DNA from: an uncultured Clostridia bacterium
Lineage (GTDB): Bacteria; Bacillota; Clostridia; Christensenellales; UBA1242
DNA: 64,000 bases
NCBI GenBank assembly: GCA_944377365.1
Contig: CALWEQ010000007.1
Span: forward strand, 1-64,000
Direction of reading: 5' to 3'
Positions within the stretch are counted from its first letter, which is position 1. Each line of letters starts with the position of its first letter. The position numbers were made by a program, and so were the translations under genes. Shown here piece by piece: positions 4,219 to 61,569 of this stretch. Below the pieces are notes generated by a model. That model searched no databases and was not told where the DNA came from. It was given only the letters and a program-made list of their open reading frames with translations.

Positions 4219-6299
4219 TTAAAGAAAAAATAAAAGAATTAATGATGAAAGATAGTTTGGTTTATTCAAAACCAGACAATCTTTTTTTGTTTTTAGCAGA
4301 AGCGTTAAGCGTTTCAATAGACAAGATTAAAAATGAAACAAAAAAAATGTTGGCCAGCGGAGAAATCTTTGAAATACGAAAAGGGAAATATCTAGTTTTG
4401 CCATCAAGGGGATATGTAAGTGGAAAGTTTTCAGGTTCATCAAAAGGTTTTGGTTTTTGCGATGTGGGAACCGAAAACGACATATTTATTCCTGGCAACA
4501 GAACTTTCGGAGCAATTGATGGAGATGGCGTTATTGTAAAGCTGTTTTCGATTAATGACGGCAAAGAAGGGGAAGTTGTTTCAATCTTTTCTCCTGTTAA
4601 GAAATTGGTAGGCAGAGTTGTAAAGATCAATCGCAATTTGTTTTTAGAGCCTGACAATGAAAAGATTCCATTTCGCATTCCTCTAATAAAATCAAAAATT
4701 TATAGCAAGCAAAATGAAAAAGTTGTTATAAACGTAATTCGTAAAAAGAATGGCAAAATAAGTGGTGAGGTCATTGAAACACTTGGTGATGCTGATGATG
4801 TTAAGACATTGGAACTTGCAATAATCAGGCAACACAATCTTTACGAAAATTTTTCTGAAAAAGTCGAAAAACTTGCAAATGATTTAAATAGACCTGTTTC
4901 TAAACAACAAAAAGCGGGGAGATTGGATCTAACTAAAATTGTAACATTTACAATAGATGGTGAAGATGCCAAAGATTTTGATGATGCAGTATCCATTGCA
5001 GAGCTTCCAGGCGGAGGTTTTGAGTTGGGAGTCCACATTGCTGATGTCGGCGAATATGTTAGGCAAGGTTCACCTATTGACGAAGAGGCTTTCGATAGAG
5101 GTACAAGCACCTATTTTCCAATCACAGTGTTGCCTATGTTGCCAAAATCGTTGTCGAATGGTATATGTTCGTTAAATGAAGGGGTTGAGAGACTGACTTT
5201 GTCTTGCATCATAAAGCTAGATTGTGAAGCGAATGTTTTAGATTATAAGATAAAAGAGTCGGTAATTAAAAGCAATGCGAGGTTGACTTACAATGAAGTA
5301 TATCCAATTTTAATTGGACAAGACAGCACTGAAAAAGCCAATAAATTTAAAAAAGAACTGCTTTTAATGGGCAAATTAGCAAAAATATTGCAAAACAACC
5401 GTGAAAAACGTGGGGCGCTCGATTTGGATATTCCAGAAGCGGAGTTTGTTTTTAATGCCGAGGGATATGTTGTTGATGTAAAAAAGAGAGAACGAAATGA
5501 TGCGCATAGGCTTATTGAAGAGTTTATGATTCTTGCGAATGAGGTTGTTGCAAAACATTTTAACATTAAAAACATTCCATTCGTATACCGCGTTCACGAA
5601 AAACCAACGGTAGAAAAAGTTAAAAGCGTTTTAGATTTTTTAAAAGGGCTTGGGTTTGCTGTCCCGAAAATTCCACAAAAAATTACTCCTAATTTTATAA
5701 AGAAACTTATTGAACTAGCAAATAAAAAAGATTACAGCGAAATTGTTAATAAAATTATATTAAGGAGTATGCAAAAAGCAATATACAAAAATCAAAATTT
5801 AGGACACTTTGGTTTGGCTTTAGAGTATTATTGTCATTTTACTTCTCCTATAAGAAGATATCCTGATCTTACAATTCATAGAATAATCAAGGAATATTTA
5901 AAAAATGATGGGCATATTTCATCCGAAAGAAAAGAGGAGTTGGAAGGATTAACTTACGAGAGTGCCTTGCAAAGTTCAGAAGCTGAACGCAATAGCGATA
6001 AAGCCGAACGCGAGGTTGACGATTTATGGAGAACTTATCTCATGAAAGACAGAATTGGGGAAGTGTTCGAAGGAATAATAACAAATGTCACAAATTTTGG
6101 TATATTTGTTGGTTTGGACAATAGTGCTGAGGGACTTGTGAGAATTGAAGATTTACCAGGCGGAGGATATTTGTACTTCGAAAAATCTCTCGAATTAAAA
6201 AATCAATCCAAAAGATTTAGGATTGGGGATAAGGTAAAAGTAAAACTCATAAACGCTAATGTTTTTACAAGAAAAATTGATTTTGAACTTGTAAAATAA
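4215..6299 (+). CDS. rnr: Ribonuclease R
   Basis: This 694-residue 3'-to-5' exoribonuclease degrades structured RNA and works with tmRNA in clearing mRNAs from stalled ribosomes. Visible domains are an N-terminal winged-helix region (1-60), a cold-shock-type OB domain starting near GYVSGKFSGSSKGFGF (about 68-83), and the RNB catalytic domain with the metal-binding aspartates in DGEDAKDFDDAV (about 248-259). A further RNB block (CHFTSPIRRYPDLTIHR) and a C-terminal S1 domain (about 615-690, EGIITNVTNFGIFVGL) follow. Length is a little below the B. subtilis protein. ATG 4215 overlaps the secG stop (ATGA), which implies translational coupling. Confidence 0.97.
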   Translation: MIKEKIKELMMKDSLVYSKPDNLFLFLAEALSVSIDKIKNETKKMLASGEIFEIRKGKYLVLPSRGYVSGKFSGSSKGFGFCDVGTENDIFIPGNRTFGAIDGDGVIVKLFSINDGKEGEVVSIFSPVKKLVGRVVKINRNLFLEPDNEKIPFRIPLIKSKIYSKQNEKVVINVIRKKNGKISGEVIETLGDADDVKTLELAIIRQHNLYENFSEKVEKLANDLNRPVSKQQKAGRLDLTKIVTFTIDGEDAKDFDDAVSIAELPGGGFELGVHIADVGEYVRQGSPIDEEAFDRGTSTYFPITVLPMLPKSLSNGICSLNEGVERLTLSCIIKLDCEANVLDYKIKESVIKSNARLTYNEVYPILIGQDSTEKANKFKKELLLMGKLAKILQNNREKRGALDLDIPEAEFVFNAEGYVVDVKKRERNDAHRLIEEFMILANEVVAKHFNIKNIPFVYRVHEKPTVEKVKSVLDFLKGLGFAVPKIPQKITPNFIKKLIELANKKDYSEIVNKIILRSMQKAIYKNQNLGHFGLALEYYCHFTSPIRRYPDLTIHRIIKEYLKNDGHISSERKEELEGLTYESALQSSEAERNSDKAEREVDDLWRTYLMKDRIGEVFEGIITNVTNFGIFVGLDNSAEGLVRIEDLPGGGYLYFEKSLELKNQSKRFRIGDKVKVKLINANVFTRKIDFELVK

Positions 6300-6397
6300 G
6301 TTGTAATTTAAAAAAAGTGTAAAATTTGCAAAAAAAACGCTAAATTTTAAAAAAAAATTAAAAAAGGGTCTTGAAATATATTTTAAAAGGTGTTATA

Positions 6398-6859
6398 ATG
6401 AATAACGAAATGAGGGTGATAACCACAAATAAAAAAGCATTTTACAATTTCTTCATTTCAGATTTGGTCGAAGCTGGCATAGTGCTTAAAGGTAGCGAGG
6501 TCAAGTCAATACGACAAAATGGAATGAGTTTAAATGAAAGTTTCGTTATTGTAAAAGACGACGAAATGTTTCTGAAAAACGCATACATTAAAACGTATGA
6601 ACACGACAAGATTTCAAAACTGGATGAGCGAAGAACAAGAAAATTGTTGCTTCATAAAGCTGAGATCGAAAAACTTTCCCGAAAGGTTCAAGAAAAGGGA
6701 TTTTCACTTATGGCTACCAAAGCTTATTTCGACAAAGGGAGGGTCAAAATAAGTGTGGGTCTTGCAAGAGGCAAAAAACTTTACGACAAACGTGAATGTA
6801 AAAAACAAGACACGATTAAACAAGAAATTCGCAGGGTCGTAAAGGAAGGGGGGCGATAA
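6398..6859 (+). CDS. smpB: SsrA-binding protein SmpB
   Basis: SmpB binds tmRNA and brings it to stalled ribosomes. The 153-residue protein has the family landmarks ITTNKKAFYNFFI, GIVLKGSEVKSIRQ, AYIKTYEHD and GLARGKKLYDKRE, ending in a basic tail (RRVVKEGGR). I chose ATG 6398, behind AAAAGG at 6385-6390; an in-frame TTG at 6371 would add nine residues absent from the family. Its last codons overlap the mature 5' end of the tmRNA gene, so the last codons also encode part of the tmRNA acceptor stem. Confidence 0.95.
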   Translation: MNNEMRVITTNKKAFYNFFISDLVEAGIVLKGSEVKSIRQNGMSLNESFVIVKDDEMFLKNAYIKTYEHDKISKLDERRTRKLLLHKAEIEKLSRKVQEKGFSLMATKAYFDKGRVKISVGLARGKKLYDKRECKKQDTIKQEIRRVVKEGGR

Positions 6860-7198
6860 GGCTTCGACGGGGCAAGGGAGAAAGTGCACAGCGTGTGGTT
6901 TTGATGCCAACCTAAAAAGTGTCAAAAAAATAAACGCAAACAAAACTTATAAGACTAGTTTAGCTGCTGCTTAACAGTCCGTTGATTGTTCGTTCCACTT
7001 TGCGAGCAAATCGGCGTCAGTTAAAAGTGGGCGTTAAATTGGTTGGCTTTTGACCAATTTAATAAGAAAAACAAAAGCTAGCGAAATTCAAATTTGTTTG
7101 TTTTAAGGATTTTGCGAGACAATTAAAACAAACTGCACACGGAGAACAGCTTTTAAAACTTGTTTCGGACGTGGGTTCAATTCCCACCGTCTCCACCA
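6849..7198 (+). ncRNA. ssrA: Transfer-messenger RNA (tmRNA)
   Basis: The 5' end GGGGGCG (6849-6855) pairs with CGTCTCC (7188-7194), followed by ACCA (7195-7198). A T arm (GTGGGTTCAATTCCCAC) precedes the 3' acceptor strand. The resume codon is GCA at 6936-6938 and the tag reads ANKTYKTSLAAA, ending at TAA 6972-6974. The small hydrophobic LAAA end fits the degradation-tag rule. Pseudoknot-like paired segments follow (for example GGTTGGCTTTTGACCAATTT). Size about 350 nt. The gene lies directly downstream of, and 11 nt overlapping, smpB. Confidence 0.97.
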
Positions 7199-7261
7199 AA
7201 ATTGGTTTTTACAGGTGTTTCCTGAAAAACATATAAAAATAATAAAAAAGAGGTGAATTTT

Positions 7262-8422
7262 ATGGAACAAATTATACTTCAAGTCGTAATTATTCTTGGA
7301 ATAATCATAGCCGGAGGGTTTTTAATATTCTTCCTTGGCGATCTTCTTATGTCGATTGTTGATCCAAAAAGAGAAAACGAAAGAGTTAAGGCAAAAAAGA
7401 AAAATGATGTGAAAAAGTTTGCTCAAAAAGTTGAAGAGCTTCCAGAAGAAGTAAAAGAGGAAGTGTTAAAAAACGAAGATGTAGCAGAAGTTATGGCTGA
7501 AGCTAAAGCTATTGAGGAGCCTCAAGCAACTCAACAAAGCGATGAAATTTCAGTTGAAGAGTACAAACCAGCATCACAAGTTGTTGAAGAAGATGCACAA
7601 GAAGAGCCAGAAGATGATGAGCAAGCTCGAATTGCTGAAGCACGCGCCGCTTTGGAAAGACGTAAAGAAGAAATACTTAGACGTATTCAAGCTCAAATGG
7701 AAGATGATGACGAGGAAGAGGAAGAAGACGAAGAAGAGCAAGCTCCAGAAGCAGATGAAGAGATAGAAGAAGACGTCGTAGAAGATGCTGAAGAAAACAA
7801 TGAAGATGAAACAGAAGAGGAAACTGTTGAAGTAGCTGAAATAGAAGAATCAGAACAAGAGAAACAGTTAAGAAAGGAACTCGAAGAAGCCAAGCAGGCA
7901 CTTGAAGCTGAAAAAGCACGTTATTCAGAACTTGCTAAACAGATTGAACAAGCAAAAGAAAGCGAAGCAGAACAAATCGTTTCAAAGCCAGCTCTTCCAA
8001 AAGAAGAATATGAAAAACAACTTGAAGAGCTTCAAGAAAGACTTTCTGCAAACGAAAAAGAACTTCGCGCTTGCAAGCGAGAATACTTGCCTTTAGCAAA
8101 AATCAAAAAGACTCTTGAAAGAGACGAGAAGAAACTTCGTAGGAAAGAAGCAGCTGTTGCAAAACAACAAATGATGGTTTATGGAGTTAACAACTATTCG
8201 GACATCGATGAAGAGAAAGCTAAAAAGCTTGCTGAAGAACTTGATCTTTATGATGGACTTAAACTTTCTGTTCAAAATTGTAAAGATGTTATGGAAAACA
8301 ACAAAGATCGTTTCCCAGTGCTAGAAAAAATGTATTTCATCTTGAAAGCACAAAACGAACAGCTTAAAAATGACATTTTGGAAGCAAAACAAGCAATCGA
8401 AGCTTACGACGAAGAAGAATAA
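7262..8422 (+). CDS. Membrane-anchored acidic coiled-coil protein, unknown function
   Basis: The protein has 386 residues. Residues 4-30 form one N-terminal transmembrane helix (QVVIILGIIIAGGFLIFF). The middle (about 60-205) is extremely acidic, with runs such as DDDEEEEEDEEEQ, and the rest (about 200-385) is predicted coiled coil rich in E, K, Q and A. A Sec signal anchor with a cytoplasmic or surface rod is the simplest topology. ATG 7262 follows AGAGGTG; a GTG at 7253 would overlap that ribosome binding site. It resembles the general design of EzrA- or septum-type anchored coiled coils, but there is no real sequence match and I assign no function. A strong terminator follows. Confidence 0.75.
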   Translation: MEQIILQVVIILGIIIAGGFLIFFLGDLLMSIVDPKRENERVKAKKKNDVKKFAQKVEELPEEVKEEVLKNEDVAEVMAEAKAIEEPQATQQSDEISVEEYKPASQVVEEDAQEEPEDDEQARIAEARAALERRKEEILRRIQAQMEDDDEEEEEDEEEQAPEADEEIEEDVVEDAEENNEDETEEETVEVAEIEESEQEKQLRKELEEAKQALEAEKARYSELAKQIEQAKESEAEQIVSKPALPKEEYEKQLEELQERLSANEKELRACKREYLPLAKIKKTLERDEKKLRRKEAAVAKQQMMVYGVNNYSDIDEEKAKKLAEELDLYDGLKLSVQNCKDVMENNKDRFPVLEKMYFILKAQNEQLKNDILEAKQAIEAYDEEE

Positions 8423-54967: not shown

Positions 54968-55145
54968 AAAATTAAATCAAAAAAAACTTTTTAACTTTTA
55001 ACTATTTTAAATGAGTTTAATTTATCTAATTTAGAAAATAAGGTTAATTTAAGACACATAACATAAAAAGCAAAAGTGAGCTTATTTAGAAAAAGTCCAC
55101 TTTTATTAAAAGTAAAAACTATCAAGTAAAAAATGATTTGTGATT

Positions 55146-55220
55146 TGGTGTTCCCAACAGGACTCGAACCTGTGACTAGCCCTTAGGAGAACTCACTCTA
55201 CCTGAGGGGCTTGAACAAAC
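55146..55220 (-). pseudogene. Decayed tRNA-Arg(CCU)-like sequence, possible att site
   Basis: On the minus strand the 3' half reads CTCCTAAGGG..., then a good T arm (ACAGGTTCGAGTCCTGT), acceptor TGGGAAC, and ACCA. The block CTTAGGAG (55182-55189) lies 36 nt from the TGG, exactly as in the intact tRNA-Arg (61531-61538 from 61495). The 5' half does not pair into a proper acceptor or anticodon stem. Either the integrated element displaced this 3' half on insertion, or it is an independently decaying tRNA. The 180 bp before it hold nothing recognisable. Confidence 0.5.
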
Positions 55221-55392
55221 CTTGTATTATCTTACATTTTGTTTAATAGTTTTTGTGTGTTGACTGGTTGTTTTTGCGATTGCTTTCAATAACTTTTGTA
55301 TCTTGCAATAATTTTCATAAATAACTATTGATAAATTATTGATAAAATAGTATTTGTCCTTTTAAAAATTAAAATAAAAAGGAGCAAAAGTT

Positions 55393-55869
55393 ATGAATAA
55401 TCAACAAATTAAAACCACACAAGAAATGAAACTACCACACGAGCAAGCAAGGGATTTGTTTATGTCAATACAAAAACAAAGCGGAGCAGCAATAAAGCCC
55501 ATTGGAGTGTTTCAGTTCTTTTATAACTATATCGCAACTATTTCAAAAAGCAAAATGAATAGAGTAAAAGCAAGAAATATTGCAGATGTTTATTGCGTAT
55601 TACAAAATGAATTCTTTATCACAAATGGCAGCAAAAAACCACACGAATGGTTTTATATGACACAATCTCGCTGGGATAAATATGGACTTGGTCGAAAGGC
55701 AATTCAAAATAGTGTAAAGTTTTTAAGTGATAATATGTTTATTGAAACCACTTTAAGAACACACCCATATATTCCACAAAATAAACTTAGATGGTATAAA
55801 ATAGATTTAAAATGGCTTGAATTCATTGCCAACTATGCAGAAAGCAACAATACAAAAAATTGGCGGTAG
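55393..55869 (+). CDS. Winged-helix protein, replication-initiator-like
   Basis: The protein has 158 residues. Residues about 90-150 read like a winged helix used in phage or plasmid replication proteins: WFYMTQSRWDKYGLGRKAIQ, then SVKFLSDNMFIETTLRTHP and LRWYKIDLKWLEF. The ribosome binding site AAAAAGGAGC precedes ATG 55393. It is the first gene of the integrated element and lies beside a palindrome-rich noncoding zone. DNA binding is likely; initiation of replication is possible but not shown. Confidence 0.6.
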   Translation: MNNQQIKTTQEMKLPHEQARDLFMSIQKQSGAAIKPIGVFQFFYNYIATISKSKMNRVKARNIADVYCVLQNEFFITNGSKKPHEWFYMTQSRWDKYGLGRKAIQNSVKFLSDNMFIETTLRTHPYIPQNKLRWYKIDLKWLEFIANYAESNNTKNWR

Positions 55870-56230
55870 CAACAAGGAGCAAGAAACTTATTATAAGGGT
55901 ATAGTTATTATTTGCACGCTACTTGTAGACACCTAGCATACAAAAGATTATTATATGCACCTTGTAAGTAAAACAAGGTGCATAAAGAAAGAGATAAAAA
56001 AGAGAAGTAATTACTTGCAAGCCTCTTGTTGAAAACAAGGGGCTTCTATACTTCATCTATATGTTGTCTATACTAGTTAGAACTACAGATTTACTCGTTG
56101 CCACCCTTTTGCAACAACAAAATATATAATTTTAATATATTTATCTACTAGTTTATGCTACTACAGTTGAACTACAGATTTAAAAAAGCTATAGTTTTCT
56201 AAAAGTCTTTGTATTATTTTTGTCACAAAG
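55870..56230. other. Noncoding region with two strong hairpins, a palindrome and a direct repeat
   Basis: A 10-bp perfect stem TGCACCTTGT/ACAAGGTGCA (55956-55982), a 12-bp palindrome AAGTAATTACTT (56005-56016) and a 12-bp stem with one G-U pair (56019-56030 with 56034-56045) fall within 90 nt. The sequence GAACTACAGATTTA repeats at 56080-56093 and 56169-56182. No open frame is present. It could be an origin, a transfer or packaging signal, or small RNAs. Confidence 0.5.
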
Positions 56231-56259
56231 CTGCCTTTGATTGACATTTTTGTAAAATT
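56231..56259 (+). promoter_or_regulatory. Promoter of the two-gene unit
   Basis: TTGACA (56231-56236), a 17-bp spacer and TAAAAT (56254-56259), ahead of a GTGAGG ribosome binding site. Confidence 0.7.
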
Positions 56260-56294
56260 ATGTTAAAATAATAAAAAATATTAGTGAGGTAAAT

Positions 56295-57239
56295 ATGGCT
56301 GATTTTAAAATGAGCGTAAAAATTGGAGAAATTGAACTTAAGCTTGAAGGCGAATATGAAGATGTTGTAAAGGTATTTGCTGATGTTAAAGAGAGTGGAA
56401 TTGGGAAATTAAATCTCTATGGCGAAAATGTGCCACAAAACAGAAATATTATTTCTCAACCACAAATTGAAACTAATCAACCGCTTCAAATTGAAATGAC
56501 TAATAATGAAAACCAAGAAAATTCCGTATCTTTACAAGAAAACAATGACATTCCAAGTCTTGAAGAGATTAAAATCAAAGATATGCCAAAAGGTGAAGTT
56601 GAATGGATTTTGGTTTACTCTTCTTTTGCAAGTGATTTTGGAAGTAAAGAATTTGCAAAAACAGATATAGTGAGTTTATATAAAGATAATGGCAGGTATA
56701 GTGGAGGAAATAGAGCAAATTTTTCTACAAATTTAAAGAAAGCCATTTCACCATATAATTATATCAAACCCATCACAAAAGAAACTTATATATTAACTGA
56801 AACAGGAAAACAACATTTTAAAAATTTGATTTCTGGTAAAAGAGATTTAACGAAAGTAAAACAGAAGCGAACCAAAACAAAAATTAATCCTAATATCACA
56901 TCTTGTAAAATAATAGATTTAGGATTGTCAACAGAAGAAATTGGTTTATTAAAGCAGAATTATGAAGAAAATAAAGATAAACTAACAACTGGAGTAAATA
57001 AAACATTGTATTTTATTTATTGGCTAAAAAAACATAAAAATGTACAAGAAGTAGAAGCAAATACTATTTACTCATTACAAAGGATTGTGTCAGATACTAA
57101 ATTATTTGATATCCCACAAACTTTTAAAAATATGTCAAGACGAAACGGCTTTCTTACTCAATCCGCTGAACATAAAAACAAATATTCTTTAAACGCACCA
57201 GGCGAAGCACACTTATTGGGTAAAATACTTAAGGCGTAA
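56295..57239 (+). CDS. Tandem winged-helix-like protein of unknown function
   Basis: The protein has 314 residues. A short beta-rich head (KIGEIELKLEGEYEDVVKVF, about 8-28) and a glutamine/asparagine-rich linker precede a helical domain (about 100-180: ILVYSSFASDFGSKEFAKTD, YSGGNRANFSTNLKKAISPY, ILTETGKQHFKNL). That domain looks like a winged helix, and a second, similar unit is at about 205-310 (IYWLKKHKNVQEVEANTIYS, KNMSRRNGFLTQS, YSLNAPGEAHLL). The head motif resembles regulators or sensors found in front of other accessory proteins. The next gene starts 2 nt on and shares such a helical unit, so the two form one system. Function unknown; a defence or element-control role is a guess. Confidence 0.6.
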   Translation: MADFKMSVKIGEIELKLEGEYEDVVKVFADVKESGIGKLNLYGENVPQNRNIISQPQIETNQPLQIEMTNNENQENSVSLQENNDIPSLEEIKIKDMPKGEVEWILVYSSFASDFGSKEFAKTDIVSLYKDNGRYSGGNRANFSTNLKKAISPYNYIKPITKETYILTETGKQHFKNLISGKRDLTKVKQKRTKTKINPNITSCKIIDLGLSTEEIGLLKQNYEENKDKLTTGVNKTLYFIYWLKKHKNVQEVEANTIYSLQRIVSDTKLFDIPQTFKNMSRRNGFLTQSAEHKNKYSLNAPGEAHLLGKILKA

Positions 57240-57241
57240 AT

Positions 57242-57988
57242 ATGGAAGAATTAATAGCATTTTATAAAAAAATACCAAATTATAAGGAGTTAAAACCTAG
57301 TGAATTAATTCCCTATTTTGCTTATTATGTAGAAAATGAAAATGGAATTATTACTGCTAAGGATATATTGAAGTGTTTTGAAAAATTAACACTCCCTAAT
57401 TATTCTGGCGTAAGCACTTATTTAACAAGGCAATCGGATAAAAAAACTGGGAAATTTATAAAGCAAAAGACAGGATATAAACTTAATCGCATTTATAAAG
57501 AAGAAATTGCTTCTTCTCTAAATGAAGTGGTGGACGTCCCACTGACGACAAATTTTTTTGATGTAAATTTATTAAATAATACTCAATATTACTTAATCAA
57601 CACGGCTTCTCAAATGTGCAAATGTTATGATTCGGGTTTGTATGATGCAAGTCTTGTTCTAATGAGAAAATTATTGGAAACATTGATTGTTGAAACCTTT
57701 GAGAGGTTTGGAATAGAAGATACTATTAAAGACACGAACGGTAATTATAAATTTTTAAGTGAACTTATCCCTGCTTTTTTAAACAGTAAAAAATGGACAG
57801 CTAGCAGAAATATTAAAAGCAGTATGGATAAAATTAAAAAGTATGGGGATTTAAGCGCTCATAATAGAAGATTTATAGCTCATAAATCAGTGTTAGATGA
57901 TGTAAAATTTGAGTTAGGACAGGCTGTTCTAGAAATAGTATTATTAATTGATTATCCTAATTGGGTAATAGATAAGAAAACAAAGTAG
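57242..57988 (+). CDS. DUF4145/HEPN-like protein with winged-helix head
   Basis: The protein has 248 residues. Residues 1-85 resemble the helical units of the preceding protein (SELIPYFAYYVENENGIITA, LPNYSGVSTYLTRQSDKKTG). Residues about 120-240 look like the DUF4145/HEPN-type helical bundle: YDASLVLMRKLLETLIVETF and KKYGDLSAHNRRFIAHKSVL. HEPN-like proteins in accessory regions are often RNases or toxins, but no clean RxxxxxH motif is seen (it reads SAHNRRF). It follows the previous gene by 2 nt, ends inside a terminator stem, and shares its promoter. Confidence 0.6.
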   Translation: MEELIAFYKKIPNYKELKPSELIPYFAYYVENENGIITAKDILKCFEKLTLPNYSGVSTYLTRQSDKKTGKFIKQKTGYKLNRIYKEEIASSLNEVVDVPLTTNFFDVNLLNNTQYYLINTASQMCKCYDSGLYDASLVLMRKLLETLIVETFERFGIEDTIKDTNGNYKFLSELIPAFLNSKKWTASRNIKSSMDKIKKYGDLSAHNRRFIAHKSVLDDVKFELGQAVLEIVLLIDYPNWVIDKKTK

Positions 57989-58010
57989 CCAAATGAAAGC
58001 TACTTTTATT
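57982..58010 (+). terminator. Terminator of the two-gene unit
   Basis: AAAGTAGC (57982-57989) pairs with GCTACTTT (57999-58006), followed by a T-rich tail. The stop codon TAG of the preceding gene lies within the left arm. Confidence 0.75.
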
Positions 58011-58022
58011 TTTTGATTTCTT

Positions 58023-58051
58023 TTGACATAATTATAAAAAAGTGCTATCAT
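58023..58051 (+). promoter_or_regulatory. Promoter of the hairpin leader RNA
   Basis: TTGACA (58023-58028), a 17-bp spacer and TATCAT (58046-58051). The predicted start near 58056-58058 falls on the first bases of the 17-bp hairpin. Confidence 0.75.
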
Positions 58052-58054
58052 AAA

Positions 58055-58152
58055 GTTGCGACACAATTGAATAATTTATACCCAAAGAGTGAAAGATTTT
58101 TTGCTATTCATACAAATTCTTCCACACCCTTTGGGTTCAATTGTGTCGCAAC
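58055..58152 (+). ncRNA. Long perfect hairpin RNA leader, possible new regulatory RNA
   Basis: GTTGCGACACAATTGAA (58055-58071) is the exact reverse complement of 58136-58152, giving a 17-bp perfect stem. Inside, CCCAAAG (58081-58087) pairs with CTTTGGG (58129-58135), leaving a 9-nt bulge on the left and a large AT-rich loop (58092-58122). No T tract follows, so it is not a terminator. It begins at a consensus promoter and continues into the GIY-YIG gene, so it is either the structured 5' leader of that mRNA or the precursor of a small RNA. No Rfam family is recognised. Confidence 0.6.
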
Positions 58153-58154
58153 AA

Positions 58155-58200
58155 TTGGAAGGTTTGTTCTGGATAGACTGTGCCTTCCTTAATTGGAGGG
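58155..58200 (+). promoter_or_regulatory. Alternative hairpins controlling the GIY-YIG ribosome binding site
   Basis: CCTTCC (58183-58188) can pair with an upstream GGAAGG (about 58157-58162) or with the ribosome binding site GGAGGG (58195-58200), in the stem GTGCCTTCC/GGAGGGCAC (58180-58188, 58192 loop, 58195-58203). The two structures exclude each other, so the leader has the parts of a translational switch. Confidence 0.5.
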
Positions 58201-58212
58201 CACTTTTATTTT

Positions 58213-58869
58213 ATGGAAAAGAAAGGTTTTGTTTATATTTTAACCAACCCTTGTTTTAAAGAAAATTGGGTAAAGATTGGACAAACAGACAATTTAGATA
58301 GAAGAATTTGGGAACTTTCACAAGCAACAGGAATTCCCTTGCCCTTTGAAATGTATGCCGTATTAAAAACTGCTAAATATAAACAAGCAGAACATATGAT
58401 ACATAGACTTATTGGTAAACTTGCACCTGATAAACGCATAAACCCCAAAAGAGAATTTTTTAATATTGAGCCAGAAGATGCGGTTTCAATTATGAAAGAT
58501 ATTGCAAGTCTTATTGATGATGCTGAAATTATTTACAATGAAAAAATAACTACTGAAATAACAACGGAAAAACAACACGGAAAGAAAGCTCCACGGAAAA
58601 CTTTTTATAGTATGGACATAAAAAATGGAGACATTATAGAATTCACGCTTGACCCAAAATACAAAGCAACAGTATGCGGAGAAAGAACAGTAATGTTTGA
58701 GAACAAAGAATACTTTTTAACACCTCTTGGAATTTTGCTATTACAAAGAATTGGGCACAGCGAAGAACAAGCAAGACAACTTGGAAGCGGTTTTGGAGTT
58801 TTCAAATTTGATAGCCAAGACGACAACCTTTATGACCGTTGGGAAAGGCTAAACGGAAACAAATATTAA
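58213..58869 (+). CDS. GIY-YIG nuclease domain protein (T5orf172-like)
   Basis: The protein has 218 residues. It starts with the GIY-YIG head GFVYILTNPCFKENWVKIGQ followed by TDNLDRRIWELSQATGIPLP (near residues 4-44), so V-Y-I and V-K-I-G replace the classical GIY and YIG. An H..R block (AEHMIHRLIG) and conserved FNIEPEDA follow. The C-terminal part (about 115-218) carries a separate domain (FYSMDIKNGDIIEFTLDPKY). These nucleases cut DNA in mobile elements. The ATG 58213 lies 12 nt after GGAGGG. An in-frame GTG at 58180 is in the hairpin and rejected. Confidence 0.8.
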   Translation: MEKKGFVYILTNPCFKENWVKIGQTDNLDRRIWELSQATGIPLPFEMYAVLKTAKYKQAEHMIHRLIGKLAPDKRINPKREFFNIEPEDAVSIMKDIASLIDDAEIIYNEKITTEITTEKQHGKKAPRKTFYSMDIKNGDIIEFTLDPKYKATVCGERTVMFENKEYFLTPLGILLLQRIGHSEEQARQLGSGFGVFKFDSQDDNLYDRWERLNGNKY

Positions 58870-59004
58870 GCAATTTATCGTTTGCCCTCGTTGCTTTATG
58901 GTTGCTTACTTGATTTGTATCAACTCAATAAAACATACCATAAAAAGAAGAAGACACCGCCAAGCAAAGATTTGAGAAAGCAAAAAGAGTTTAGATCGCA
59001 AGGC

Positions 59005-59033
59005 TTTACATCCGTATTTTGCTTTAATATAAT
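59005..59033 (+). promoter_or_regulatory. Promoter of the small membrane protein
   Basis: TTTACA (59005-59010), a 17-bp spacer and TATAAT (59028-59033). The 130 bp before it hold nothing recognisable. Confidence 0.65.
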
Positions 59034-59060
59034 CATTTCAAATTAAAAGGAGGTAAAAAT

Positions 59061-59300
59061 ATGAAATGGGTCAATCTTTCACAAATGATTTTGCTAATTT
59101 TGTTTGTTATCACAGTGGCAAGCAGTGTGAATAGCGAAAGTATAGGAAACAAAACCCTACTTGCTTTTGACACAGCAGTTGTTCCTATTTTAGCAGTCAT
59201 TATTATTGCTTCACTTGTCCTGTCAATTGTAATGTTTGTTATGCAAGTTAAGAAAAACAAAAAGCAAAAGCAAGAAGAAAAAACGAACGAAGAAAAGTAA
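59061..59300 (+). CDS. Small two-TM membrane protein of the element
   Basis: The protein has 79 residues. Two hydrophobic helices (about 6-24, LILFVITVASSV region, and 38-62, VVPILAVIIIASLVLSIVMFV) are followed by a basic, charged tail (KKNKKQKQEEKTNEEK). AAAAGGAGG precedes ATG 59061 and a promoter lies upstream. Small membrane proteins of this type occur in many integrated elements, as holin-like, immunity or stress proteins; no function can be assigned. Confidence 0.65.
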   Translation: MKWVNLSQMILLILFVITVASSVNSESIGNKTLLAFDTAVVPILAVIIIASLVLSIVMFVMQVKKNKKQKQEEKTNEEK

Positions 59301-59412
59301 AAAAGTTTTGATTTTTTAGGTCGCTGCACTTTACTTTGTATAATGCTTATACTACAATATTGATATGAAACAAGCAATTCCACCAAAGATAGATTTTTTA
59401 ATAAAAATGCCG

Positions 59413-59442
59413 AAAGACACTCTCAAAAAGGGTGTCTTTTTT
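59413..59442 (+). terminator. Terminator before the xis promoter
   Basis: AAAGACAC (59413-59420) pairs with GTGTCTTT (59432-59439), with a short loop and a T-rich tail. Confidence 0.8.
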
Positions 59443-59480
59443 AGTTTTCAAAAAAAATTTAAAAATCTTTATCAAAATGA

Positions 59481-59508
59481 TTGCTTTTTGTTAAAAATGT
59501 GCTATAAT
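59481..59508 (+). promoter_or_regulatory. xis-int promoter
   Basis: TTGCTT (59481-59486), a 16-bp spacer and TATAAT (59503-59508). A leader of almost 190 nt follows before the xis start. Confidence 0.65.
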
Positions 59509-59575
59509 ACTTTCAACGTTAGCAAAGCCAACAGGCAGCTTCAGTTTTTAATAAATAGCATCAGCACAGTCAACA

Positions 59576-59645
59576 GACAGCTAAAGCACGTATTTAATAT
59601 TTTTATAGTATTTAAATCGAAAGCTTTTAGCTGTCTTTTTCTTTC
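59576..59645 (+). terminator. Attenuator-like terminator in the xis-int leader
   Basis: GACAGCTAAAG (59576-59586) pairs with CTTTTAGCTGTC (59624-59635), followed by TTTTTCTTTC. Just upstream, CAACAGGCAGCTTCAG (59530-59545) resembles CAACAGACAGCTAAAG (59571-59586), so an alternative fold may compete with the terminator. The arrangement suggests controlled read-through into xis and int. Confidence 0.6.
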
Positions 59646-59703
59646 GTGCGTGAGTGCAACCAAAAAGAAGCCCAAATTAAATTTAAAAGGAGGGTTTCTT
59701 TTT

Positions 59704-59970
59704 ATGCGTTCATTTATAGATTCAACCATAAGGAAACAAAACGAAACACAAAATTGCGATACTCAAAAGATAAGTGAAAATTCTGCAAGATATAGAACAG
59801 TCAATGCAACAATAAAAGAATTAAAAGAGATAGATCCAAACACTTGTATTTCTACCTATTTTATTCGTTGTCTTTGTAATTCTAAAAAAGTTCTTTCTCT
59901 AACTGCTGGGAACAAAGTTTTAGTCAACTTTGATGACCTTCTAAACTATTTACAAAAAGGAGAAAGATAA
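59704..59970 (+). CDS. Excisionase-like DNA-binding protein
   Basis: The protein has 88 residues. The C-terminal half (KELKEIDPNTCISTYFIRCL, then LTAGNKVLVNFDDLLNYLQK) matches the winged-helix pattern of excisionase-type proteins that sit before tyrosine integrases in Firmicutes elements. The start ATG 59704 follows AGGAGG at 59689-59695; longer in-frame starts upstream overlap the attenuator and are rejected. int follows 1 nt after its stop. It would direct recombination toward excision. Confidence 0.75.
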   Translation: MRSFIDSTIRKQNETQNCDTQKISENSARYRTVNATIKELKEIDPNTCISTYFIRCLCNSKKVLSLTAGNKVLVNFDDLLNYLQKGER

Positions 59971-59971
59971 T

Positions 59972-61384
59972 ATGGCAAGTATACCTAAAAAACCAAGAAT
60001 TAAAAAAGATGGAACAGAAGTTTACGACATTCAAGTTTATGTTAAGGACTCAAAGCAAAAGATATTTTACAAAACATATACTCGTGAGCAAGGCATAACC
60101 GAAAACGAGAACAGAAGAAGATTAAATGCTTTTGCAGTAAACTTTGAAAACGAAGTTCGAAACAAAATCGCAGAACAAAAACAAGCATTTCTTCGCAACA
60201 AACAAGAAATAACTTTTAAAGAATTCTCTTTAAAATGGTTAAGAAGAAGCGAACAAAAGGACTCCAAAACATCAGTTGTTAGAAATACCAAAATTGTGGA
60301 AGATTTAAATGTTTTAATAGGCAACCTTAAAATGAAAGAAATTCAGCCACTCGATATTCAAGAAATTCTAGACTATTTAAACAGCAAGAAAATCATAAAA
60401 GAAACAGCAGTTTTGAAGAAATCAATTGATGAAATAATAAAACATACAAATGTTGATAAACTTTGCAGAGAAAACGATTTTAGCACTTGCACAATTTTCT
60501 ATGCAAAGAAAGGACAAACTATTCAATGGCTAAATGCAGTTAAAATTTGTAATGCTTTAAAACTCAATGCAAACGAATACTTTACAAAGAAAGTAGAAGA
60601 ACGGCCATATTCCAAAGGCAGTAAACTTGTTTATCGTAAAGTTTTAAACGCAATTTTTAACTTTGCAATAGAAACAGATTTGATAGACAAAAACCCTTGT
60701 AAGTTTGTTTTAAAACCAAACAATCTAAGCGGTGAAATAAAAGAAAAGGACATCTTATCACTTGAAGAAACAAAACAATTACAAAACACTATAAAATCAA
60801 TAAACAATATTGAAGATTTAAAAAAGAAAACAATGGTGGCAATGTTTCTATCACTTGGGCTAAGACAAGGAGAACTTGTTGGGCTACAATGGAAAGATAT
60901 AAATTGGGATACGAAAAAGATTACAATCAACAGAAGTTCAACCTATACTGGCTCAAAATATGGCATAGTCACCAAAACACCTAAAACAAAAACATCTATC
61001 AGAACGCTCCCTATTCCACAAAGTTTAATGGAAATCATACTAGAATACAAAAATTGGTATGATAACGAACATAATAGGATTTATGAAATATGGGACAATG
61101 AAAACGAATGGATTTTTGTAAAAATAACAGGGCAACAATTATTCCCACGAACAACAACCCAATGGCTTGACTATGTTTTAAATAAAGGTGGTATTAGACA
61201 TATTGGTTGTCATTCATTAAGACATACCTTTATTACAACATTACTAAGAGAAAAAGTACCAGTTAAAGTTGTGGCAAAATTTGCTGGACATGCAAATCCA
61301 AATGTGACTTTATCAACTTATGCCCATTTCTTAGACGAAGATAATGATGAGGCTTCACAAGTTATGGACAAGTTTTTGAAATAA
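59972..61384 (+). CDS. int: Tyrosine site-specific integrase with embedded HTH domain
   Basis: The protein has 470 residues. An N-terminal AP2/arm-type DNA-binding domain (about 1-60) and a SAM-like core-binding domain (from about 80) are interrupted by a Cro-like helix-turn-helix insert (about 140-208, with KKGQTIQWLNAVKICNALKL), then the core-binding domain resumes. The catalytic domain has arginine in GLRQGELVG (near 297), lysine in PKTKTSIRTLP, HSLRH (near 414-417), GHANP and the nucleophile tyrosine in STYAHF (residue 450). It integrates and, with xis, excises the element at the adjacent tRNA-Arg. Confidence 0.93.
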   Translation: MASIPKKPRIKKDGTEVYDIQVYVKDSKQKIFYKTYTREQGITENENRRRLNAFAVNFENEVRNKIAEQKQAFLRNKQEITFKEFSLKWLRRSEQKDSKTSVVRNTKIVEDLNVLIGNLKMKEIQPLDIQEILDYLNSKKIIKETAVLKKSIDEIIKHTNVDKLCRENDFSTCTIFYAKKGQTIQWLNAVKICNALKLNANEYFTKKVEERPYSKGSKLVYRKVLNAIFNFAIETDLIDKNPCKFVLKPNNLSGEIKEKDILSLEETKQLQNTIKSINNIEDLKKKTMVAMFLSLGLRQGELVGLQWKDINWDTKKITINRSSTYTGSKYGIVTKTPKTKTSIRTLPIPQSLMEIILEYKNWYDNEHNRIYEIWDNENEWIFVKITGQQLFPRTTTQWLDYVLNKGGIRHIGCHSLRHTFITTLLREKVPVKVVAKFAGHANPNVTLSTYAHFLDEDNDEASQVMDKFLK

Positions 61385-61465
61385 CCATACAAAAACCATA
61401 CTTAAAAAGTATGTTGTCTTTTAATGTCAAGTTTAGAAAAAGGAGAAAAATATGTATTATTATAG

Positions 61466-61490
61466 AAAAAGACCACCTTAAATAGTGGTC
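61466..61490 (-). terminator. Terminator of tRNA-Arg
   Basis: On the minus strand GACCAC..GTGGTC (plus 61485-61490 and 61471-61476) runs into five Ts (plus 61466-61470), 5 bp beyond the tRNA. Confidence 0.7.
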
Positions 61491-61494
61491 AGTT

Positions 61495-61569
61495 TGGTGT
61501 TCCCGGCGGGAATCGAACCCACATCGGTCGCTTAGGAGGCGACTGTTCTATCCGTTGAACTACGAGAAC
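61495..61569 (-). tRNA. tRNA-Arg (anticodon CCU), CCA encoded
   Basis: On the minus strand GTTCTCG pairs with CGGGAAC (one U-G), the D arm is GTTC..GAAC, the anticodon stem GTCGC/GCGAC encloses CTCCTAA (anticodon CCT, Arg codon AGG), and the T arm is intact (GTGGGTTCGATTCCCGC). CCA is encoded (plus 61495-61497). Its 3' half probably came with the integrated element. Confidence 0.95.

Follow-up and report, generated by a model that had tools for sequence, protein, structure and literature searches.

The locus considered here raises the question of what a promoter-driven, self-complementary RNA could be doing directly in front of a GIY-YIG nuclease gene in an uncultured Clostridia bacterium. 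The original prediction, made from the 64,000-nucleotide stretch of DNA that was analysed (the window), left four roles open to this RNA: a guide, a decoy, a sensor leader or an antisense control RNA. Its description of the DNA itself is borne out (Table 1). The consensus promoter is TTGACA-17-TATCAT, with its -35 hexamer at 58023-58028 and its -10 hexamer, preceded by a TG extension, at 58046-58051. The arms at 58055-58071 and 58136-58152 are complementary over all 17 bp, and the inner stem is formed by CCCAAAG and CTTTGGG as described. Transcription had been expected to begin near the left arm, and the predicted +1 is indeed G58058, so that the transcribed helix, P1, would be of 14 bp. With a minimum free energy of -62.6 kcal/mol, the fold has a z of -8.2 relative to 200 dinucleotide-shuffled sequences. 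A search of the 64-kb window for perfect 16-bp inverted repeats within 150 nt gave only two overlapping 16-mers, which are the hairpin itself, and ten random sequences with the window's dinucleotide make-up held no repeat of this size. The view that there is no T tract, and so no terminator, is correct for the hairpin but not for the unit as a whole, which closes with a previously overlooked intrinsic terminator (GTGCCTTCC-TTAATT-GGAGGGCAC followed by TTTTATTTT). The Shine-Dalgarno sequence of the nuclease gene, GGAGG at 58195-58199, lies inside this terminator, and the ATG at 58213 comes directly after it. The upstream gene has a terminator-like stem of its own, which suggests that the RNA starts a new transcription unit and, together with the terminator at its 3' end, that 58023-58212 is a complete promoter-RNA-terminator unit. 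Small upstream open reading frames across the hairpin were rejected on inspection, as indels between members break their frames and they lack a preceding ribosome-binding site.

Table 1. Positions in the window of the RNA unit, its predicted helices and the surrounding features.
Feature	Position	Strand	Remarks
Terminator-like stem closing the upstream gene	57982-58006		Listed by the scan on the - strand; TATTTTTT follows the stem on the + strand
Sigma-A type promoter	58023-58051	+	TTGACA-17-TATCAT with TG extension
Stretch common to loci with unrelated upstream DNA	58042-59069	+	-10, RNA, nuclease gene, 3' flank
P1, 5' strand	58058-58071	+	G58058 is the predicted +1
Conserved xAAUA element	58069-58073	+	After the P1 5' strand
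P2, 5' strand	58081-58087	+	CCCAAAG
P3, 5' strand (A)	58089-58103	+	
P3, 3' strand (B)	58113-58127	+	Partner of A (P3) or of A' (pseudoknot)
P2, 3' strand	58129-58135	+	CTTTGGG
P1, 3' strand	58136-58149	+	
Alternative hairpin P1alt	58140-58155	+	AUUGU 58140-58144 with ACAAU 58151-58155; excludes P1
Antiterminator, 5' strand	58152-58163	+	Partners 58182-58188 and 58191-58195
A' strand	58157-58166	+	GGAAGGTTTG; mimic of P3 strand A, pairs with B
Intrinsic terminator (T)	58180-58212	+	Stem 58180-58203, U tract 58204-58212; from scan, helix paired in the family
GIY-YIG (T5orf172) protein gene	58213-58869	+	PADLOC defence candidate PDC-S57
Tyrosine integrase of the carrying element	59972-61384	+	
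tRNA-Arg beside the integrase	61495-61569	-	

Copies of the RNA were sought by several routes. A protein search with the nuclease returned near-identical loci (L005-L009 and L011) and a DNA search of the order added L002 and L004, the latter from another family of bacteria, where the same hairpin precedes a gene for a zinc-ribbon protein. Pattern searches of viral contigs gave more members on phage-like contigs, with differing inner stems and differing downstream genes; the pattern used for these covered some of the -10 box together with the 5' strand of P1, whereas the genome members were found without it. Matches of a right-arm pattern in viral contigs were mostly chance ones inside genes. 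A covariance model (R1) trained on four phage-contig members, with the window left out, matches the window at 59.9 bits (E 9e-12, the E-values of the model being rough) and has matches in 73 of 391 genomes of the class and in 43 of 222 genera; a single genome may have as many as seven. With a refined model the window's own genome was the sole match in a phylum-wide sample of 249, and the RNA was present in 9 of 101 genomes of the window's genus. The RNA is thus characteristic of the class and unevenly spread within it, the distribution expected of mobile DNA. An exact-arm pattern run over class and phylum found the genus only, because P1 covaries, and weak minus-strand matches of the model are due to the palindrome. 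Neither in the window nor in 11 member loci did any Rfam 15 family reach its gathering threshold over the RNA; the best small-RNA match in the window, ncr1575, scored 23.5 bits against a threshold of 60, and the same scans gave no T-box match. By blastn, the window RNA and three other members found nothing among plasmids; among phage records, one member matched two human-gut entries that carry no annotation, the rest being chance matches. One phage contig with an RNA copy (L022) probably also carries a diversity-generating retroelement: at 5133-7593 it has a reverse transcriptase next to a match to RT-18 RNA, together with a lectin-like gene that may be the target.

A lack of conservation of the paired arms in homologous loci was to count against the hairpin; the covariance-model search finds them both conserved and covarying. 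Of the pair cells in helices P1, P2, P3 and T, 94.1% are paired across 106 aligned copies, whereas shuffles reach 66.0%. Double changes number 1168 (325 +/- 17 in shuffles), and the covariation score is 0.730, compared with 0.204 after shuffling and no more than 0.132 after sliding; this alignment was fitted to the model and so favours its helices, but the slid controls nevertheless collapse. P1, whose arms are nearly invariant among close relatives, covaries and has 97.4% of its cells paired, P2 is the most variable helix with more than 95% paired, and the terminator helix reaches 99.2% across the family. G.U outnumbers A.C by 395 to 74 pair cells, which indicates that the sense strand is the RNA. 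As expected of a riboswitch, there are also conserved unpaired positions in the putative sensor domain: the xAAUA element after P1 (A in 100, T in 90 and A in 94 of the 106 copies), UUGGUAAAA in P3, noted by inspection, and CARCAA, from column counts. The promoter, which lies outside the covariance model, stands at a fixed distance from the RNA in 85 copies, with the T of the -35 box in 83, the TG in 71-72 and a TATAAT-like hexamer at -12 in 75 of them. Of the 85, 81 begin with G, and from these fixed distances it appears that the RNA begins exactly with P1.

Three further helices compete with those of the model and, as all of them lie outside it, the model cannot favour them. In the antiterminator, the bases immediately following P1 pair with the terminator's loop and 5' arm; in the pseudoknot, strand B of P3 pairs with the linker strand A'; and in P1alt, the P1 3' strand pairs with RCAAN. 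In 84 members, pairing with own rather than swapped partners gave -12.2 versus -7.0 kcal/mol for the antiterminator, -16.0 versus -10.5 for the pseudoknot and -3.0 versus -2.2 for P1alt, the two negative controls giving -6.3 versus -6.2 and -13.6 versus -13.0. Since relatedness inflates these larger tests, nine members at most 66% identical were also taken, with z values of -6.0, -5.0 and -3.2, respectively, and about 0 for the negatives; among 5000 permutations none was as good for the antiterminator or the pseudoknot, and 23 were for P1alt. Direct counting for P1alt gave 91.0% paired (83.7 in shuffles) and 35 double changes (8.8). The mean antiterminator fold is -13.7 kcal/mol compared with -6.1 with a shuffled linker, and it is better than the terminator or within 3 kcal/mol of it in 41 of 84 members. 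In the window the predicted values are -13.4 kcal/mol for the antiterminator and -19.8 for the pseudoknot, with the terminator favoured by about 8 kcal/mol. Judged by this comparison, the antiterminator, the pseudoknot and the alternative hairpin covary and are mutually exclusive. An attenuator calls for an antiterminator that excludes the terminator, found here on comparative and energetic grounds, and for an intrinsic terminator between leader and gene, which is present.

It calls also for a gene directly downstream on the same strand. Such an open reading frame, with a ribosome-binding site, begins soon after the terminator in 59 of 85 non-redundant copies, the proportion being 17% at random positions on the same strand and 2 of 32 in divergent orientation. 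Most of the genes start 19-45 nt past the beginning of the U tract, which leaves too little room for another promoter, and no conserved second promoter was found between terminator and gene. About a quarter to a third of the copies have no detected close gene, some of them merely failing the strict ribosome-binding site criterion. The 55 downstream products matched 35 families and, among the matches listed (25 families), there are nine BspA-type LRR proteins, three Cu-amine-oxidase N-terminal domains, three zinc ribbons, two PASTA domains and one each of SLH, M23 and Big_2; many are small uncharacterised proteins. ToxN/AbiQ-type endoribonucleases are absent from these 25 families, and the product in the window is the sole GIY-YIG/T5orf172 protein among the matches listed. 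Overall the RNA precedes genes for surface LRR proteins, lipoproteins, phage genes and small proteins, functions too mixed to indicate a ligand. A Cys-rich small protein (MIIDITGIELIPGNGGKDCPGNGE...) recurs directly behind the RNA in L106, L115, L117, L120, L133 and L153, as do two small families, MADYKRLYFHLF... in L090, L114 and L116, and MNIKVELLKNYI... in L108, L139 and L167.

Of the roles first proposed, the sensor leader is the best reading, the RNA being promoter-driven, strongly structured, placed before a gene and conserved in its paired arms. The feature probably belongs, as one of many copies, to a new family of transcription attenuators that act in cis and have a fixed promoter of their own and exchangeable cargo. 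Comparison of the copies shows the helices with their covariation and mutual exclusion, the promoter at its fixed distance and the placement ahead of genes. Transcription would start at the first base of P1, and P1-P2-P3 would form first and fold as the sensor. In the ON state the linker after P1 would pair with the terminator's loop and 5' arm, so that the polymerase could read on into the gene. In the window this would free the Shine-Dalgarno sequence too; as that sequence lies inside the terminator stem, the choice of state may gate translation as well. In the OFF state the terminator would form and an RNA of about 155 nt would be released. The proposed switch is strand B: while it is held in P3 the linker would stay free (ON), and once released it would capture the linker at A', P1alt would remove the RCAAN bases, and both events would free the terminator (OFF). 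We infer this direction of switching, as well as a setter, which may be a ligand, a protein or another RNA. Several observations count against an attenuator. P1, of at least 12 bp, is very stable and its opening is hard to explain. The terminator is energetically preferred in the window, some copies have no close gene, the cargo is mixed, and tandem copies each have a promoter and a terminator, an arrangement that independent small RNAs would also show. Such loci, with two copies some 50 to 500 nt apart and their own terminators, are L117, L120, L124, L137, L140, L161 and L166.

It is rather unlikely that the product is the terminated RNA of roughly 155 nt itself, acting in trans as a small RNA, with the gene reached by leaky read-through or the unit tending to insert before genes. 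A promoter of its own fixed to the base of the hairpin, a strong terminator in all copies, complete tandem units in L117, L137, L140, L161 and L166 and the copies without a close gene would all suit such an RNA. However, the excess of close same-strand genes over random positions does not, and a covarying antiterminator that excludes the terminator would have no role in an RNA that was purely terminated.

The working principle is that of a transcription attenuator and is close to that of terminator-type riboswitches, with which the RNA shares a 5' structured domain, an exclusive choice between antiterminator and terminator and a gene directly downstream. Clostridial genomes may each contain several c-di-GMP riboswitches, placed ahead of surface genes, and the present RNA resembles that type in its own multiple copies per genome before surface-protein genes. 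It differs from these riboswitches in that its promoter and start are fixed at the first base of P1, in having two mimic strands, A' and RCAAN, that copy strands within the sensor domain, and in having no Rfam match. T-box leaders likewise choose between antiterminator and terminator in a long 5' leader of Firmicutes, but they precede aminoacyl-tRNA genes, whereas this RNA has no T-box match and varied cargo. In attenuators of the pT181/pIP501 type an antisense RNA directed at the leader shifts folding toward the terminator, and a strand with two alternative partners decides termination; the strand-exchange layout found here is of that kind. Control by antisense RNA had been among the original suggestions and is nonetheless improbable, as the opposite strand has no conserved promoter across the 85 copies (at the best -10 position 11 of the 85 have at least five matches, against 66 on the sense strand), and the cargo is not a replication gene.

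A partnership of the RNA with the nuclease, as guide, decoy or type III-like antitoxin, is very improbable. The order of promoter, structured RNA, terminator and gene is that of ToxIN, the GIY-YIG gene stands directly behind the terminator and is conserved with it as a unit, and its product, probably an anti-phage nuclease, matches PADLOC PDC-S57 over its full length (E 4.8e-51). The shared DNA ends at 59069 in L006-L009 and begins there at 58042, beside the -10 box (at 58035 in L005 and 58023 in L011); as the upstream DNA is unrelated in L006-L009, the unit is common to different contexts. Unlike ToxIN, however, the RNA is no array of short repeats, and the downstream proteins are mostly unrelated to one another. 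Co-occurrence of the hairpin with GIY-YIG genes was to be looked for; the RNA is not specific to the nuclease, as the genes behind almost all copies are unrelated. Within the window's genus the RNA of L175 and that of L181 stand in front of different genes, the one in L181 being unrelated to the nuclease, and in L010 a nuclease gene with 64% identity has no recognisable RNA copy before it. With one GIY-YIG protein among 55 products, the guide thus finds no support, nor does the decoy, and a direct link to GIY-YIG was rejected. In L175 (677-1503, - strand) the RNA is followed by a 153-aa uncharacterised protein and a 121-aa protein, the latter 46% similar to residues 129-214 of the window nuclease; the two would share a C-terminal domain on exchanged partners. 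The upstream region of L010 (1509-1769) is different, and a TTGACT promoter-like sequence there runs into GCGTAGAATGTTTAAT, possibly a decayed RNA copy. That the palindrome acts as DNA, as an operator pair or the end of a mobile element, is scarcely credible: the near-invariant P1 arms of close relatives and a shared stretch starting near the -10 box would agree with it, but P1 covaries in the wider family, the excess of G.U over A.C is explained only by an RNA of this strand, the unit has no transposase, and wobble pairs with covariation rule out a MITE or transposon end.

The RNA unit of the window lies in a small integrated element (55144-61519), whose second attachment site is probably the partial copy of the tRNA 3' end at 55144-55170 (27 nt, 85%). 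Of the proteins of this element that were scanned, none was recognised as a phage structural protein. The protein upstream of the RNA (57242-57988) has weak matches to PADLOC PD-Lambda-5_A (E 8e-4) and DUF4145 (E 0.05). Promoter, RNA and cargo gene could move together on mobile elements and phages.

Mining of human microbiomes has yielded 3161 structured-RNA candidates, unnamed ones included (Fremin and Bhatt 2021, PMC8040213). The present family comes from the same habitat and is set apart from the named candidates only, so that it could be among the 3161. No match to it appears among the published motifs in the portions of PMC8040213, PMC11109978 and PMC8632094 that were covered, and no description of the family was found in the literature searched, with an unnamed listing in the supplement of PMC8040213 possible.

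Around one in five of the sampled genomes of the class carries the RNA, often several times, yet Rfam offers no model of it. With a covariance model available, its start site fixed and its alternative helices predicted, it lends itself to direct tests in vitro on short RNAs. Having promoter, sensor, antiterminator and terminator in less than 200 bp, it could also serve as a compact genetic switch. We tentatively suggest that it may represent a new orphan riboswitch-like class of Clostridia and their phages, with numerous copies to a genome: a strand-swapping, direct sensor of one small molecule or stress signal with a built-in promoter, which would switch on the surface, phage and anti-phage cargo that it travels with. 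As phage genes, a defence candidate and surface proteins stand under one module, its trigger would reveal a signal that they share in gut Clostridia.
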